From NCBI GenBank assembly GCA_028281285.1, contig JANQKF010000001.1:1-64000 (forward strand): a DNA stretch of 64,000 nucleotides, in the 5' to 3' direction. Below, in pieces: positions 20,259 through 26,097 of the stretch. Under the pieces are notes generated by a model that was not told the origin of the DNA, searched no databases, and saw nothing but the letters and a program-made list of their open reading frames with translations. A program made the translations under genes and the position numbers. This stretch comes from Cyclobacteriaceae bacterium (lineage in GTDB: Bacteria > Bacteroidota > Bacteroidia > Cytophagales > Cyclobacteriaceae). Positions within the stretch are counted from its first letter, which is position 1. Every line of letters begins with the position of its first letter.

Positions 20259-20855
20259 TTATATGGGTTCGACCTCTGGGCTCTGCTTCCTATATCCCGC
20301 GAAGAATAAATAGGGCAAGAAGGTAGTGACCAAAAGAAATATGGATGCCATTAACAATTTTTCCGCCCTGGAATATTGTCTATAGGCTACTATTGCGCTT
20401 TCAGCACTTTGCGCTACCATATTCTTATAGATAGGATGGTTGTGGAAGGCTGTGGGATGATTATTCTCCTGAAGTTCATATTCCATTTGAGCGGAGTTCA
20501 TTCGAAGTGCATTTTTTTTGTTCTCAAAACTGGAGAGGGCAAAAAACAATATTGAAAGGCATAGGCACAAGGCACTCACATAGCCTCCCAGAAATGCTAT
20601 TTTTCTGATCATAATAGTTGATTTTTGTGTTGTCAATAATTTCAAATCTCTTTCAAATTCCTGCGGGCCATTAGGCATAGACTGAATCTGGGCTCTTTCT
20701 AAGGCCTCTTCGAATCCTAGTTTTTCTTCATCCATTAATTCTTCCACTTTGCAGGAGAGGTGATCTAGTAGATCACTCTTTAACGATTGGTTTTGCATAC
20801 CATGAGAGTTCATATAGTGTTGCAATACCTGTTGTTGTGATTGGGAAAGTCTCAT
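20259..20855 (-). CDS. Membrane protein with DUF1700/HAAS-like N-terminus, PadR partner
   Basis: 198 residues. The first 80 residues are helical and charged (LKSDLLDHLSCKVEELMDEE then FEEALERA), resembling the HAAS/DUF1700-type cytosolic domain. Two transmembrane helices follow at about 83-107 and 165-187. Its ATG overlaps the stop of the PadR gene by four bases (ATGA), so the two are translationally coupled. PadR-HAAS pairs are a recurring regulator plus membrane-sensor arrangement. The exact function is unknown. Confidence 0.7.
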   Translation of the reverse strand: MRLSQSQQQVLQHYMNSHGMQNQSLKSDLLDHLSCKVEELMDEEKLGFEEALERAQIQSMPNGPQEFERDLKLLTTQKSTIMIRKIAFLGGYVSALCLCLSILFFALSSFENKKNALRMNSAQMEYELQENNHPTAFHNHPIYKNMVAQSAESAIVAYRQYSRAEKLLMASIFLLVTTFLPYLFFAGYRKQSPEVEPI

Positions 20856-21190
20856 GCGGATGCCGGTTTGGTACCAAATAATAGTTTCAGAGTTTCCCGG
20901 AATTCCAATACTTCTTCGATCATAGGGTGAGCGGCTTCCTTACCTCTCGGAGTAAGAGAATAATACTTGCGCGTTCGGTTATCTACCATTACCGATTCAG
21001 TGACTAAATAGCCTTCTTTAGTGAGGGCGTGCAAAGTAGGATAGAGTGACCCTTCTTTAATCAGGATTTTATCCTGGCTAAGGGTTTTGACCCTCTGTGT
21101 GATTTCATAACCATACATCCTGCGATTTTCGGAAAGGAGTTTCAGGATTATGGGTTTAAGGATGCCCTTTAGAATTTCTCTTGAATACAT
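20852..21190 (-). CDS. PadR-family transcriptional regulator
   Basis: 112 residues from the ATG giving MYSREILKG; six codons upstream in frame are part of the operator region and unlikely to be translated. The winged helix is typical: ILKLLSENRRMYGYEIT, then the recognition segment EGSLYPTLHALTKEGYL and the wing RKYYSLTPRGKE. PadR proteins repress nearby genes and often their own operon. A perfect 9-bp inverted repeat lies 9 bp upstream of the start codon. Confidence 0.9.
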   Translation of the reverse strand: MYSREILKGILKPIILKLLSENRRMYGYEITQRVKTLSQDKILIKEGSLYPTLHALTKEGYLVTESVMVDNRTRKYYSLTPRGKEAAHPMIEEVLEFRETLKLLFGTKPASA

Positions 21191-21198
21191 AGAACAAT

Positions 21199-21221
21199 AA
21201 TACATCATAATTTGATGTATT
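21199..21221 (-). promoter_or_regulatory. Probable PadR operator (palindrome)
   Basis: AATACATCA and TGATGTATT are perfect inverted repeats separated by 5 bp, just upstream of the padR-like start codon. Dyads of this form (ATAC-type arms) suit a PadR dimer, implying autoregulation of the two-gene operon. Confidence 0.65.
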
Positions 21222-21250: not shown

Positions 21251-21673
21251 TCAGACATCCACATAGCCCTCATCCCAGGTTTTGGCGGGATTATGGCTTC
21301 TTAAGTCCACATCAAAATCAAGAGCTGCTTTCAAATTCATGAGTACTGAAACCCATCCGGGAAGTACTTCCAGGTATTCCTCATCGCTAATATTGGTATT
21401 CAGAAGTCTTAGGTCTGAACCTCCCTTCGGAGTGACATCTATGTGAAATGATACCTCGGAGTTGAAGTAATCTATTCGAAAGAGTTGATTTGGAATTCGT
21501 TCCAGAATTTTGGACTTGTATTTCCAGCTGTTGATAAATTCGAAGAGAATAGCACCATTTTCTTCCTTGGCAGATTCTGCCCAAAACCTTGCCCGTCCGT
21601 CACTGCTATTCAAAAAGTCGTACGTCTGTTTAGGGGAGGAATTTAGAGACAACCTCCATTCTACGGTTTTCAT
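21251..21673 (-). CDS. SRPBCC/START-like (AHSA1-type) protein
   Basis: 140 residues. The start VEWRLSLNSSPKQTYDFLNSSDGRARFW, the central beta strands and the final helix VSVLMNLKAALDFDVDLR fit the helix-grip fold of the polyketide-cyclase/AHSA1 superfamily, which binds hydrophobic ligands. No catalytic residue can be assigned. It is divergent from an ArsR regulator and shares an operator with it, an arrangement often seen for ArsR plus SRPBCC pairs. Confidence 0.75.
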   Translation of the reverse strand: MKTVEWRLSLNSSPKQTYDFLNSSDGRARFWAESAKEENGAILFEFINSWKYKSKILERIPNQLFRIDYFNSEVSFHIDVTPKGGSDLRLLNTNISDEEYLEVLPGWVSVLMNLKAALDFDVDLRSHNPAKTWDEGYVDV

Positions 21674-21677
21674 AAAG

Positions 21678-21685
21678 CAAAAGTA
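21678..21685 (-). promoter_or_regulatory. -7 element (TACTTTTG) of the SRPBCC gene
   Basis: TACTTTTG on the minus strand lies directly next to the ArsR-type operator (21686-21707), so the operator fills the -33/-7 spacer. A bound repressor would block polymerase. Confidence 0.5.
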
Positions 21686-21707
21686 TATATTGTATATTTA
21701 CGATATA
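21686..21707. promoter_or_regulatory. ArsR-type operator, copy 1 (SRPBCC/arsR divergent promoter)
   Basis: ATATTG-N8-CGATAT, with matching T/A at the outer ends, sits between the divergent SRPBCC and arsR genes and ends 9 bp before the arsR ATG. The same dyad with 8-bp spacing occurs at 22158-22179 and 25498-25519. Confidence 0.65.
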
Positions 21708-21716
21708 CATTGAATC

Positions 21717-22040
21717 ATGAGAATCCGTACTGAAGTCACTAGCGACTATATCACTGAAGAAGATCATCAAGTTGCCAAAATTGCCAATGCACTCGCCCAT
21801 CCTTTGAGAGTCGCCTTGGTGCGTTATTTAGCGGAGAAGAATGGTGGACAGGGAATTGATAATGAAACCTGTAACAAAGACTTAGTACAGATGTTTGATT
21901 ACTCGCAATCGACAATGTCTCAGCACGTTAAAATTCTCAGAGATTGTGGGATTTTTATTACCGAACCCAGAGACAAATTCACTTACTATTATTTGAATAA
22001 AGAATTGCTCAAACAATTCAGGTATCGCCTGGAAATTTGA
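21717..22040 (+). CDS. ArsR-family winged-helix repressor
   Basis: 107 residues. The signature is clear: KIANALAHPLRVALVRYLAE for the first helices, then the recognition helix DYSQSTMSQHVKILRDCGI and the wing RDKFTYYYLNKE. No arsenic-type CVC metal box is visible, so the ligand is not a standard metal thiolate site. It faces the SRPBCC gene and probably represses both through the shared dyad; the same dyad before two further promoters suggests a small local regulon. Confidence 0.9.
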   Translation: MRIRTEVTSDYITEEDHQVAKIANALAHPLRVALVRYLAEKNGGQGIDNETCNKDLVQMFDYSQSTMSQHVKILRDCGIFITEPRDKFTYYYLNKELLKQFRYRLEI

Positions 22041-22157
22041 CCTGTTTTTATCCGGTACCTATGTACTTTTTGTCCTGGACTACCTTATAGTATCCGGTTT
22101 AGCTAGTGGACTACCCCGGCTAAGCTTACCGGACTTGAAGTATTGCAGATAAAAACG

Positions 22158-22179
22158 TATATCGCCTATTTACGATATA
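22158..22179 (+). promoter_or_regulatory. ArsR-type operator, copy 2 (before the ABC permease)
   Basis: ATATCG-CCTATTTA-CGATAT, with T/A at the outer ends, ends 4 bp before the permease ATG. Arm sequence and 8-bp spacing are the same as in copies 1 and 3. Confidence 0.65.
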
Positions 22180-22183
22180 TATT

Positions 22184-24588
22184 ATGATTAAGTCAATACT
22201 CAAATTTAGTATCCGGTCACTTTTCCGTCAGCGACTTTACGCTGTAATCAATATTGTCGGACTGACCGTAGGAATGTTTGCATTTATGATGATCATGCTA
22301 TTTGTCAGGCATGAGGAGAGTTTCGATCAGTTTCACCAAAAAGGTGATCAGATTTACCGATTGATCTCGTATGCAAAGGCCAGATCTGCAGCCGTGACCC
22401 CTTATGTATGGGGTAAGTTTTTGAAAGAGGAATTTTCTGAAATTGAAGATTTGGTTGCTGTAAACCCTCACGCACTCACCACAAAGATCGGTGATCAGGT
22501 GTTTTCGGAAAATAGTTTGTTTTCCGTTGATTCTACTTTTTTCAACCTCTTCGACTTTCCGATAGTCAGTGGAAACCCTAAGGATTTTCTGAAAGATCCG
22601 AATAAGGTGATTATCACTGAAAAACTTGCCGTAAGATACTTTGGTGATGACAATCCTGTTGGGAAGCTCTTGGAGATTGATATGTACGGGGATTTTATGC
22701 CTTTTGAGGTTCAGGGAGTGGTAAAATGTCCGGAAAATTCACATTTGCAGTTCAATATGCTAATTCCCAGGACACATTTTTTGACAAGGTCGCCCAATCC
22801 GCTTTCCTACACTCATTGGCGAATTCATTTTCTCTATAATTATCTATTGATACCGGGAGAAATTGATGTCGAAAATCTTAAAGAGAAGTTCAGTGCATTC
22901 CTACTTAAACATGCCGGCCCTGAGGTTCAGGAAGCCTACCAACCTGATGTCGTCCCTTTGAATGATTTGTACCTTCGATCGAATTTGCCTTTTGACATGG
23001 GCCCTAAGGGGAATGCCGAAAACAATCAAATTCTATTTTATGTGGCCATTGGAATTCTTTTGATGGCCTCGATTAATTTTGTCAACATTTCGTCAGCACA
23101 ATCGCTTAGAAGAGCCAAAGAGGTTGGCGTACGGAAGGTTTTCGGTTCAATGAAATCGACCTTGGTGGCGCAGTTCGTGACGGAATCCGTTTTGACTGTA
23201 CTTGTTTCGACCACCCTTGCTTTTCTTCTTGCGTTATCGCTGCTCCCTTCCTACAACTTATTGACCGATAAATCTTTTGATTACGGGGATATTGTCAATT
23301 CAACGAACATTTTATTGATGCTGGTAATTAGTTTGTTTGTAGGAATTGCTTCAGGTGCTTATCCCTCACTAATCATGTCTTCTTTCAAGCCAATTACTGT
23401 TTTACGATCCAGAGGTGCAGGTAAGGCAAGAGGGGCCAAAGCAAGAAAAGGCCTGGTTGTTTTCCAGTTCATATTGGCCATAGTCCTGATGCTTTCCACA
23501 GGAGTGATTTATAAGCAGGTCAGGTTTATGAGCAATAAATCCTTAGGTTTTAATAAAGATCAGACCATCTCAATAAATGGAGTCGGTAAAGTGGCCAATT
23601 CTGCATCAAAGGTTCAATTGTTGCGAAATGAATTGCTAAAAAACAACAAGGTGGAATCAGTCTCAGCTTCATCAAATGACCTTGGACAACAGACCTGGGC
23701 CATGAGATTCTCGCCAACGGGTTTTGATCCTGGAGAAAAACCGTCAATAGCCACAATTTTCTCTGATCATGATTTTGCGGGTACTTACGATTTAGTGATG
23801 AAAGAAGGCAGATTCTTTGATCGAGCTACTGTTACTGACTCCGGGCATTGGTAATCAATGAAGCCGCATTAAAGTTTTTTTCAACAAAGGATCCATCCTG
23901 GCTCACCGATTTGGATTCCAAGCGAATTGGATGGACAAGTTTTGCAGGACATAGCGGTGAGTCAAAGGTGATTGGGGTCGTTAAAGATTTTAATTTCCAA
24001 TCATTGAAATCTGAGATTAAGCCACTCGTCTTCAAAATGGAACCCCAGTTTTTCTATACCATACAAGTGAAGGTTAATACCACGGAGGTTGCCTCTACCC
24101 TCGCTTTTGTTGAACAGACATGGCAAACCTTGTTCCCGGAAGTTCCAATGGAATACAATTTTGTTGATGATCGATTTGCGGAGTTATTTCAAGAAGACCA
24201 GCAATTGGGCACGTTACTGGAAGTATTTGCGGTTTTGGCAATAATGATTGCCATACTGGGGTTATTCGGGTTAGCATCTTTCCTTGCTATTGAAAAAGAG
24301 AAGGAAATGAGCATCAGAAAAGTCGCAGGCGCTACGATGTTTGAGATACTCAAGAAGCTATCGTGGACCTTCATAAAGCTCATTCTATTGGCCAACGTCA
24401 TTGCCCTTCCTCTAGGGTTCATATTTATGAATCAGTGGCTGGGTGAGTTTGTGTTTAGAATCGATATGCCGGTGTTGGTGTTCATTGGTGCTACAGGCGC
24501 TACACTACTGGTGGCGATTTTTACGGTCGGTTATCATGCTTATAAAACTGCGCGAGTGAACCCGGCAACCATATTAAGTCAGGATTAA
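22184..24588 (+). pseudogene. MacB/FtsX-type ABC permease split by a -1 frameshift
   Basis: Two overlapping frames, 22184-23854 (556 aa) and 23848-24588 (246 aa), together give one complete permease of about 802 residues. It has an N-terminal helix and MacB_PCD domain, an FtsX block near 285-400, a second periplasmic domain, and a final FtsX block ending ARVNPATILSQD. The break is in a GGG run at 23843-23845. Adding one G would join TDSG to ALVINEAALKFF, the normal family sequence. It is either a true pseudogene, a slippage site or a sequencing error. No ATPase gene is adjacent. Confidence 0.85.
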
Positions 24589-24621
24589 TGCTTGAGGAGG
24601 ATGGAAATGTTCGTCACTGAA

Positions 24622-25491
24622 TTATTTCCATTCTTCCTTTGCCGCTCTAAGGTCCGCAAGGAAGCTGGGATTTGTCCACATCGCAGTTAGCATTTTGTGA
24701 GCTAACACACCGGCAGCTTCTTCATCACTAGGGTAGTGTATTCCCATAATCTCACGTGATTCCCCTACTTCGTAGGCGATGTCCAGAAACTGTTTACGCA
24801 TTGAAGGAATCAATTCGCTCCAGGTAAATGCTTGAATGTAGGCCCAGAGCGTATGTCCACTGGCGAACGATGGGTTTGAAATTCGGGTCATCGAATTCAG
24901 TCTTGGCTCGAGGTGGTAGGGCCTGGGGCGCATAAGATGATATTTGACCGTAAATTCCATGATACGCATATCCCGCGTTACCCCTGCAAGTAGTTTTGTG
25001 GTAGCCGGGTAAGCGTCTGGGTTTATTTCTCGGTCCGTAACTTGTTCGTATTCCCAAAACAGATCCTCAATGTTGGCTCCGGAATAATCGTTAGTCTTTT
25101 CGAGTGGCGGCCAATAACCTATTCTGGCGATGACCCAAGCTCGTTTTTTTTGAGTATCGGTACGCTCTGCTTCCAACTTGAGTAGATAGTCCAGTTCGGC
25201 TCTTGTTTGGGCTGAACTATTGGAAGGGAACTGCATGGACTCTTTCAATAAGGTAACCTGGGATAGACTAAGATAAGTAGGAGAGATGCCGATGAACTGT
25301 TTTCCTGAACTTCGTGCATTTGTCGGATATCGCATGGCGTTTAGTTCCGGTGTCGATGGGTTTGGCGTTCCATCAAGTTTGGAGAGTTCCAGGTAATGTT
25401 TTTTGATTGGTTCCAACGAGTGTAACGACTGACTTATCGAAGATTGACCGGATAAAATCAGGGCGAAGCATAAAATGAGTCTAGTGATCAT
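24622..25491 (-). CDS. Secreted PAP2 / class A-type acid phosphatase
   Basis: 289 residues from the ATG giving MITRLILCFALILSG, a signal peptide; the 12-codon upstream extension would run through the operator. All three motifs of the PAP2 superfamily are present: KYHLMRPRPY, PSFASGH and SREIMGIHYPSD, providing the catalytic and transition-state His residues. The protein likely hydrolyses phosphomonoesters or lipid phosphates in the periplasm. An ArsR-type dyad lies 6 bp upstream of the start. Confidence 0.85.
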   Translation of the reverse strand: MITRLILCFALILSGQSSISQSLHSLEPIKKHYLELSKLDGTPNPSTPELNAMRYPTNARSSGKQFIGISPTYLSLSQVTLLKESMQFPSNSSAQTRAELDYLLKLEAERTDTQKKRAWVIARIGYWPPLEKTNDYSGANIEDLFWEYEQVTDREINPDAYPATTKLLAGVTRDMRIMEFTVKYHLMRPRPYHLEPRLNSMTRISNPSFASGHTLWAYIQAFTWSELIPSMRKQFLDIAYEVGESREIMGIHYPSDEEAAGVLAHKMLTAMWTNPSFLADLRAAKEEWK

Positions 25492-25497
25492 GTTATT

Positions 25498-25519
25498 TAT
25501 ATCGTATAATTGCGATATA
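25498..25519. promoter_or_regulatory. ArsR-type operator, copy 3 (PAP2/nitrobindin-like divergent promoter)
   Basis: ATATCG-TATAATTG-CGATAT, with T/A at the outer ends, lies between the divergent phosphatase and nitrobindin-like genes, 6 bp from the former start and 50 bp from the latter. Confidence 0.65.
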
Positions 25520-25569: not shown

Positions 25570-26097
25570 ATGACTGAGATTAAATTATTACAAGTAATGA
25601 GTCCATTGACCATGTTGATTGGAAGTTGGTCAGGACAGGGAAACGGAAAATACCCTACTATGGAACCTTTCGAATTTAGCGATCAGTTGAATTTTAAATT
25701 GCTTCAAGACTCATACGAGCAAGAACCTCTGATCCATTTTGAGCAGATAGCTAAGGTGAAAGAAGATTCCGAGTTTGTTTTCAAGCATTGGGAAGCCGGT
25801 TTCCTGAGACCTGTCGACAATGGAATGATTGAACTTCAAGTGACTCATAATACTGGACGTATTGAGATTATGGAAGGAAGGTATGAGCGCTTGGACACCA
25901 ATAGAGGTCAATTCAAGATTCGTTTCACATCCACCTTTCTACACAATTCTGTCGGGTTGGTGGAGGCACATGCCAGTGAAAGGGTGTGGGTGTTAGAGGA
26001 AAACGAAATTCGATGTCAGCAAGCCATGTCCACCAAAGACATAAGTCAGATGACAGTTCACCTTAATTCAATATTGGAAAGAGTGCCTGATAGTTAG
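25570..26097 (+). CDS. Nitrobindin-like heme-binding beta-barrel protein (DUF1794)
   Basis: 175 residues from the ATG giving [10 protein letters not shown]; twenty upstream codons in frame overlap the promoter. The family pattern is clear: [19 protein letters not shown], then [28 protein letters not shown] and the final helix [12 protein letters not shown], whose His is the expected axial heme ligand. Nitrobindins bind ferric heme and react with NO or peroxynitrite. It is divergent from the phosphatase and under the same putative operator. Its stop overlaps the stop of lipA by 4 bp. Confidence 0.75.

Follow-up and report, generated by a model that had tools for sequence, protein, structure and literature searches.

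The ArsR/SmtB family and the repressor of this locus

Repressors of the ArsR/SmtB family, among them CzrA, SmtB, BigR/SqrR and AfArsR/CgArsR, share a helix-turn-helix (HTH) domain within a winged-helix fold, and act at palindromic sites in their own promoters as well as in those of their targets. The metal-sensing members possess a CxC(xxC) motif in the DNA-binding region, which in E. coli ArsR is CxCxxC, or paired His/Asp residues in the last helix. In the DNA considered here, the first 64,000 nucleotides of contig JANQKF010000001.1 from a member of the Cyclobacteriaceae (hereafter the window), the gene for an ArsR-family repressor of 107 amino acids (21717..22040, plus strand) is accompanied by three copies of a dyad, ATATYG-N8-CGATAT. 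As with the described autorepressors, these dyads are predicted, from sequence alone, to serve as operators at the gene's own and at target promoters; with a probability of roughly 0.87, they are the sites through which this ArsR would repress a small regulon until released by an inducer.

The window protein belongs to the ArsR/SmtB family by both domain and fold. It scores 35.1 bits against HTH_5 (cut-off 22) and 57.2 against NF033788 (cut-off 55), and its AlphaFold2 (AF2) model (predicted local distance difference test score, pLDDT, 82.9; predicted template-modelling score, pTM, 0.69) has the winged-helix ArsR fold. The best Foldseek matches, 6j0e (E 3.3e-5) and 6j05 (E 1.2e-4), are ArsR repressors; as general ArsR folds they give no pointer to the inducer. 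Unlike the metal-sensing ArsR proteins, it has a single invariant cysteine, Cys52, in the third helix, Lys54 and Val57 at the E. coli cysteine positions, and no C-terminal His set; none of the canonical metal-site patterns, CxC(xxC) or the His/Asp pairs of the last helix, was found in its sequence, although it may have metal or thiol sites of another kind. Cys52 is present in all 25 aligned orthologues, and Cys77 in 15 of them; a sequence search aligned Cys52 to a cysteine of M. smegmatis SmtB (8qkf). A further difference from the ArsR/SmtB control of metal efflux lies in the predicted targets, which here are a phosphatase and varied enzymes.

The dyad and its promoters in the window and in relatives

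Operator 1 (21686..21707, TATATTGTATATTTACGATATA), which has one arm mismatch, lies between arsR and a divergent SRPBCC gene. Operator 2 (22158..22179, TATATCGCCTATTTACGATATA) precedes a permease gene and operator 3 (25498..25519, TATATCGTATAATTGCGATATA) lies between divergent PAP2 and THAP4-like genes, both with perfect 7-bp arms; no strand is assigned to any of the three. The initial annotation had described the same arms with an 8-bp spacing at these positions, each beside a start codon, and both statements are borne out. Exact dyads occur at these three places only, giving five strand hits in the window where dinucleotide shuffles gave a mean of 0.06 and at most 2, and the dyad is separated from the ATG by 9 bp for arsR (21717), 4 bp for the permease (22184) and 6 bp for PAP2 (25491). 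On the opposite sides, the SRPBCC gene starts 12 bp from operator 1 and THAP4 50 bp from operator 3. When up to three mismatches were allowed, the window yielded 100 matches against 101 expected; this is the chance level, and therefore only near-exact matches are informative.

The whole genome of the window (G000; 5,162,273 bases) contains exact dyads at six places, and a reversed-pattern control gave none. Two of the three places outside the window fall within long open reading frames (ORFs) and look like chance occurrences, while at the third the dyad overlaps a GNAT start codon, with DinB as the following gene. The set of dyads linked to this ArsR has the centre YWWATWRR, and its 22-bp consensus is about TATATCGTTAATAARCGATATA.

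Orthologues of the repressor (64-79% identical) were collected in a single scan of a species-level genome collection with short peptide patterns, by which some may have been missed. The scan led to 24 loci (individual loci carry L-numbers) from Roseivirga, Cyclobacteriaceae, Cytophagales, several genera of Flavobacteriaceae, and Saprospiraceae; their ArsR proteins are not near-copies of one another, forming 23 groups at 90% identity. Counts of 25 loci include the window. When these loci were scanned for TATATCG-N8-CGATATA at a threshold of 12 matching arm bases out of 14, 30 sites were found in 20 of the 24, whereas 20 other spacings gave 0-13 sites each: 18 of them gave 0-5, spacing 1 gave 13 and spacing 15 gave 8, an excess tentatively attributed to repeats within extended sites. 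With at least 13 of 14 arm matches, there were 21 sites at spacing 8 and 0-3 at the other spacings. Although ORF interiors make up 75.6% of the bases, 32 of the 33 sites (window included) fall outside them. In the ArsR tree, 11 of 22 inner branches are drawn open and the Flavobacteriaceae need four label changes; transfer is therefore possible.

Among 19 genomes of the genus, the orthologue is confined to G000 and one relative, G158 (81% identical), all others being at most 40% identical. G158 keeps the gene order of the window with a few genes inserted, and all three operator positions are occupied by a dyad. The counterparts of operators 1 (L077:3489), 2 (L077:5199, before an intact permease gene) and 3 (L077:8957) differ at 1, 4 and 2 of 22 bases, respectively, while the 20+20 ungapped flanking bases are identical at 29, 16 and 16 of 40. 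Conservation of the operator set in a related genome, which the initial annotation had left to be checked, is thus found in G158, where the dyads have changed less than their flanks.

Within a 148-genome sample of the family, orthologues occur in G000, G011 (75%) and G087 (65%), and a more distant homologue in G080 (44%), around which no dyad above 11 of 14 was found in 12.8 kb. Among 37 genomes (the 19 of the genus and G001-G018), the THAP4-like gene goes together with the ArsR orthologue, both being found in the same three, G000, G158 and G011; 22 order-level genomes searched for THAP4 alone gave no match. On viral contigs, none of 71 pattern stretches was confirmed as a relative of the window ArsR. 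In G087, a palindrome, TTGTATATCGACTATATACAA (L071:6110-6130), directly follows the ArsR stop codon, and the ORF listed after it runs on the opposite strand.

The promoters of the relatives indicate where the dyad lies with respect to the start of transcription. The analysis covered 35 oriented promoters, a set that leaves out both orientations of window operator 1, both L086 arsR orientations and the L087 SGL orientation. In 19 of the 35, TANNTTYG fills the eight bases right before the dyad, and it takes no other offset in a 162-nt stretch; TTKG is clustered 30-32 nt upstream (16 occurrences in 12 of the 35). A Flavobacterium psychrophilum study (PMC9723704) places the sigma-A -7 box, TAnnTTTG, at -12 to -5, so that the dyad would span about -4 to +18.

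A related layout is seen before arsR itself, where TANNTTTG occurs within 60 nt in 21 of the 24 loci, compared with 46 of the 381 ORF starts that these loci contain overall, and is fused to the right half-site, as part of a weaker dyad copy, in 18 of the 24. In the window, the corresponding -7-like element of arsR, TATATTTA, lies inside operator 1. The initial annotation had proposed that operator 1 fills the -33/-7 spacer of the SRPBCC promoter. Such a promoter is plausible: a -7-like element, TACTTTTG (21678..21685, minus strand), abuts the dyad, with TAAATTTG as its G158 counterpart, but no clear -33 element was seen.

We therefore picture a repressor that very probably occupies the 22-bp palindrome as a dimer. 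Because the dyad in relatives often begins right after the -7 box, it should cover the transcription start, and bound ArsR would block RNA polymerase at or near that point until the inducer releases it. ArsR probably also represses itself, to judge by the site that merges with the -7 box of arsR. The predicted targets are arsR with the SRPBCC gene, the FtsX-type permease, PAP2 with the divergent THAP4-like gene, a GNAT-DinB operon and a decarboxylase dependent on pyridoxal phosphate (PLP).

The last two are predicted from distant operators in G000, at C12:62700 (L126:3701-3722) for GNAT-DinB and at C9:117771 (L123:3272-3293), 28 bp before the decarboxylase ORF, and the regulon probably includes both sites. 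In G158, the GNAT-DinB site is kept in the same place. Further candidate places are G158:C57:47197 and G000:C13:34313; G158:C4:15072 was dropped as an operator, as it sits within a 688-aa ORF.

Across the lineages, PAP2 is the commonest partner of this ArsR, being present in 21 of the 25 loci (L099, where none was counted, ends at a contig edge). A dyad of 12 of 14 or better sits at the start of PAP2, or of a gene run that includes it, in 18 of the 21 PAP2 loci, the sites of L098, L101 and L102 reaching 11 of 14. THAP4 and DinB each occur in 7 loci, a Pyridoxal_deC decarboxylase in 6 and a SnoaL-type gene in 5, and 4 loci encode an ArsO/YpdA-like flavoprotein; these counts cover those genes of each locus that were classified. 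A member of the window's SRPBCC cluster adjoins ArsR in only three of the 25 loci (the window, L086 and L090), some other upstream genes being unclassified. Of the single regulon proposed by the initial annotation, the dyads are conserved in G158 and recur beside the orthologues in 20 of 24 loci, but the SRPBCC partner is rarely shared. The predicted regulon is nevertheless strongly supported, and may be extended beyond the gene set first considered.

In G011, the first dyad precedes EamA and MerB-family genes, and the second a run of genes for an ArsO/YpdA-like flavoprotein, a Met-gamma-lyase-like protein, DinB and THAP4. Besides these genes, the locus (L070:6504-16999) comprises the ArsR orthologue itself, SnoaL, an ArsR-SRPBCC-like fusion, an FtsX permease and a PadR-like gene.

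Other binders and other functions for the dyad

The dyads could be recognized by a different regulator, with this ArsR a mere neighbour, the candidates being the PadR protein of the window (20852-21208), one of two G158 genes (AraC and a second HTH gene), or a paralogue of ArsR. Paralogues from the same GTDB family do lie beside ATATCG-YRATATTR-CGATAT, with the same arms and 8-bp spacing, and these arms are therefore common beyond this ArsR. The paralogues are 33-39% identical to the window ArsR in the matched part, and at six of nine places the match begins no more than about 40 bp from the dyad; four of these six were seen again in a second analysis. Their centre, however, is YRATATTR rather than YWWATWRR. 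Likewise, although a PadR gene adjoins the GNAT site too, the palindrome found at the window PadR gene is a different one, and its three-member cluster (c16) does not belong to those common to at least four loci, whereas ArsR and PAP2 form a widespread pair; PadR was rejected as the dyad binder on account of this rarity. Moreover, 18 of the 24 loci have a site related to the dyad before arsR itself. Together, these observations make another regulator unlikely. The paralogue-type dyads lie beside ArsR in G084, G104, G036, G069, G072 and G133, and BLAST found no ArsR-like ORF within 1.5 kb of those in G101, G015 and G079. The PadR ORF, on the minus strand, has the palindrome AATACATCA-TAATT-TGATGTATT at its start (21199-21221), possibly a PadR operator.

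It is considerably less likely that, within short 5' leaders, the dyad acts at the RNA level as a hairpin or attenuator. Folded alone as RNA, each window dyad forms a stem of 7-9 bp at -4.7 to -6.1 kcal/mol, which is better than nearly all shuffles. Yet these stems are A-U rich and weak, operators 1 and 3 lie between divergent genes, and, where the -7 box is seen, transcription is expected to start inside the dyad, so that one arm would be lost. The hairpin was rejected as the main mode on the position of the -7 box and the folding results. A chance origin or a dispersed repeat element is the least probable explanation, and can be all but dismissed. Two of the six exact places in the genome do lie within long ORFs, but 0.06 strand hits are expected in the window, spacings other than 8 are rarer, and the G158 operators are conserved in place above the level of their flanks; a repeat element is further contradicted by the flanks and centres, which differ between the copies.

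Several observations nevertheless weigh against operators of this ArsR. With the centre left free and up to two mismatches accepted in the arms, G000 contains 24 places compared with 14 for the reversed control, and G158 13 compared with 8; since the arms alone are thus non-specific, the dyad centre matters. Of the 24 places of G000, those examined are the three window copies, C10, C28, C9:117771 and C12:62700. The initial annotation had regarded frequent matches throughout the genome as speaking against a regulon, and on this point exact matches are rare and loose, arm-only ones non-specific. The loci were chosen by ArsR, and its presence in all of them is by construction. Four of the 24, L101, L102, L105 and L107, have no dyad with at least 12 arm matches; they do contain weaker sites, of 11 of 14 before PAP2 in L101 and L102, 11 of 14 after arsR in L107 and 10 of 14 before arsR in L105. 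PAP2 is lacking from the DNA examined of L105 and L107, and likewise from 20 kb of L089, where dyads are present.

The -7 box precedes the dyad in none of the nine oriented promoters of G000 and G158 (arsR and SRPBCC orientations uncounted), compared with 19 of 26 elsewhere, and the layout is therefore shown for the relatives and presumed for the window; the sequences that come closest to it before PAP2 are TTGATTCG (window) and ATAATTCG (G158). The window THAP4 gene, 50 bp from its dyad, has no clear promoter, and the G158 decarboxylase (74% identical) is preceded by a weak match of 18 of 22. In favour of this ArsR, the consensus is found, at no more than two mismatches, at five places in G000, four in G158 and three in the other 17 genus genomes together, although it was built partly from those same sites. 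The same limit applies to a further favourable comparison, with just two genomes devoid of this ArsR, G154 and G156, whose GNAT-DinB homologues (DinB 68 and 67% identical) have no site (best 16 and 15 of 22); G148 was left out of it (52% DinB homologue, no GNAT in 3.5 kb). Places within two mismatches of the consensus include those in G155, G157 and G057.

Predicted target genes, possible signal and significance

The SRPBCC/AHSA1-like protein divergent from arsR (21251..21673, minus strand) is assigned through the AHSA1 matches of its relatives: its G158 orthologue scores 19.8 bits, below the cut-off of 22.1, and the L090 relative 40.7, above it, while the window protein itself has no Pfam or NCBIfam match at E 0.001. 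The ABC permease of the initial annotation is of the MacB_PCD/FtsX type, although it is not a single intact gene here. A frame break divides it into two overlapping ORFs on the plus strand (22184..23854, and 23848..24588 with Pfam FtsX), whereas the syntenic G158 permease is a single 801-aa ORF (L077:5231-7636). The break, near 23850 in the gene at 22184-24588, may reflect a decayed gene or an assembly error.

The PAP2-superfamily protein (24622..25491, minus strand; PF01569, 38.6 bits) has acid phosphatases as its nearest solved structures (best E 8.5e-15). The motif residues of class A acid phosphatases are KX6RP, SGH and SRX5HXXXD. Like the nonspecific enzymes PhoC and PhoN of this class, to which it has sequence similarity, the window protein contains these residues; in its cluster, SGH and SRX5HXPSD are found in 21 of 21 members and KYHXXR(P/A)RP in 20 of 21, the pattern having caught another stretch first in L097. 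Unlike in PhoC/PhoN, where Pro precedes SGH, this position is Ala in all 21, and the window protein falls below the NCBIfam PhoC equivalog cut-off (53.7 vs 430 bits).

The THAP4/nitrobindin-like heme-barrel protein (25570..26097, plus strand) scores 88.2 bits against PF08768 (cut-off 25; the searched ORF starts at 25510). In nitrobindin, the C-terminal histidine binds heme. As in nitrobindin/THAP4 proteins such as At1g79260 and Rv2717c, the corresponding histidine of the window protein is aligned (with At1g79260, 3emm, E 6e-14), and a C-terminal histidine is present in seven of seven cluster members; the protein is below the NCBIfam peroxynitrite isomerase equivalog cut-off (80.5 vs 225). Unlike the described members, its gene adjoins a predicted ArsR operator.

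Nitric oxide (NO), heme or membrane stress as the inducing signal, as first proposed, is unsupported. Cys52 and the DinB, YpdA/ArsO-like and THAP4 partners would permit a guess at a thiol-based signal. In a tentative and rather doubtful extension, this ArsR would define a class of sensors that lack a canonical metal site, in which the invariant Cys52 would detect a thiol-reactive molecule (an electrophile, reactive nitrogen or an organometal) and thereby free a patchy detoxification regulon of phosphatase, DinB-type protein, nitrobindin-like barrel and, in relatives, YpdA/ArsO-like flavoenzymes.

In the open literature, no description of this ArsR regulon was found, nor were 'ArsR' and 'nitrobindin' found together; the two papers that mention ArsR, PAP2 and an operon deal, judging from their titles, with expression in Bacillus and with the genome of a Pseudomonas. 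The locus would thus represent a conserved small ArsR regulon whose targets are new as far as these searches reach. To our knowledge, few ArsR proteins with defined operators are known from Bacteroidota, although this is an impression rather than a count. Here, the repressor, operator, promoter layout and target genes are predicted together for marine Bacteroidota, with two genes, one class A phosphatase-like and the other nitrobindin-like, linked to an ArsR. This operator and target set would allow the inducer to be screened for directly by means of a simple reporter.

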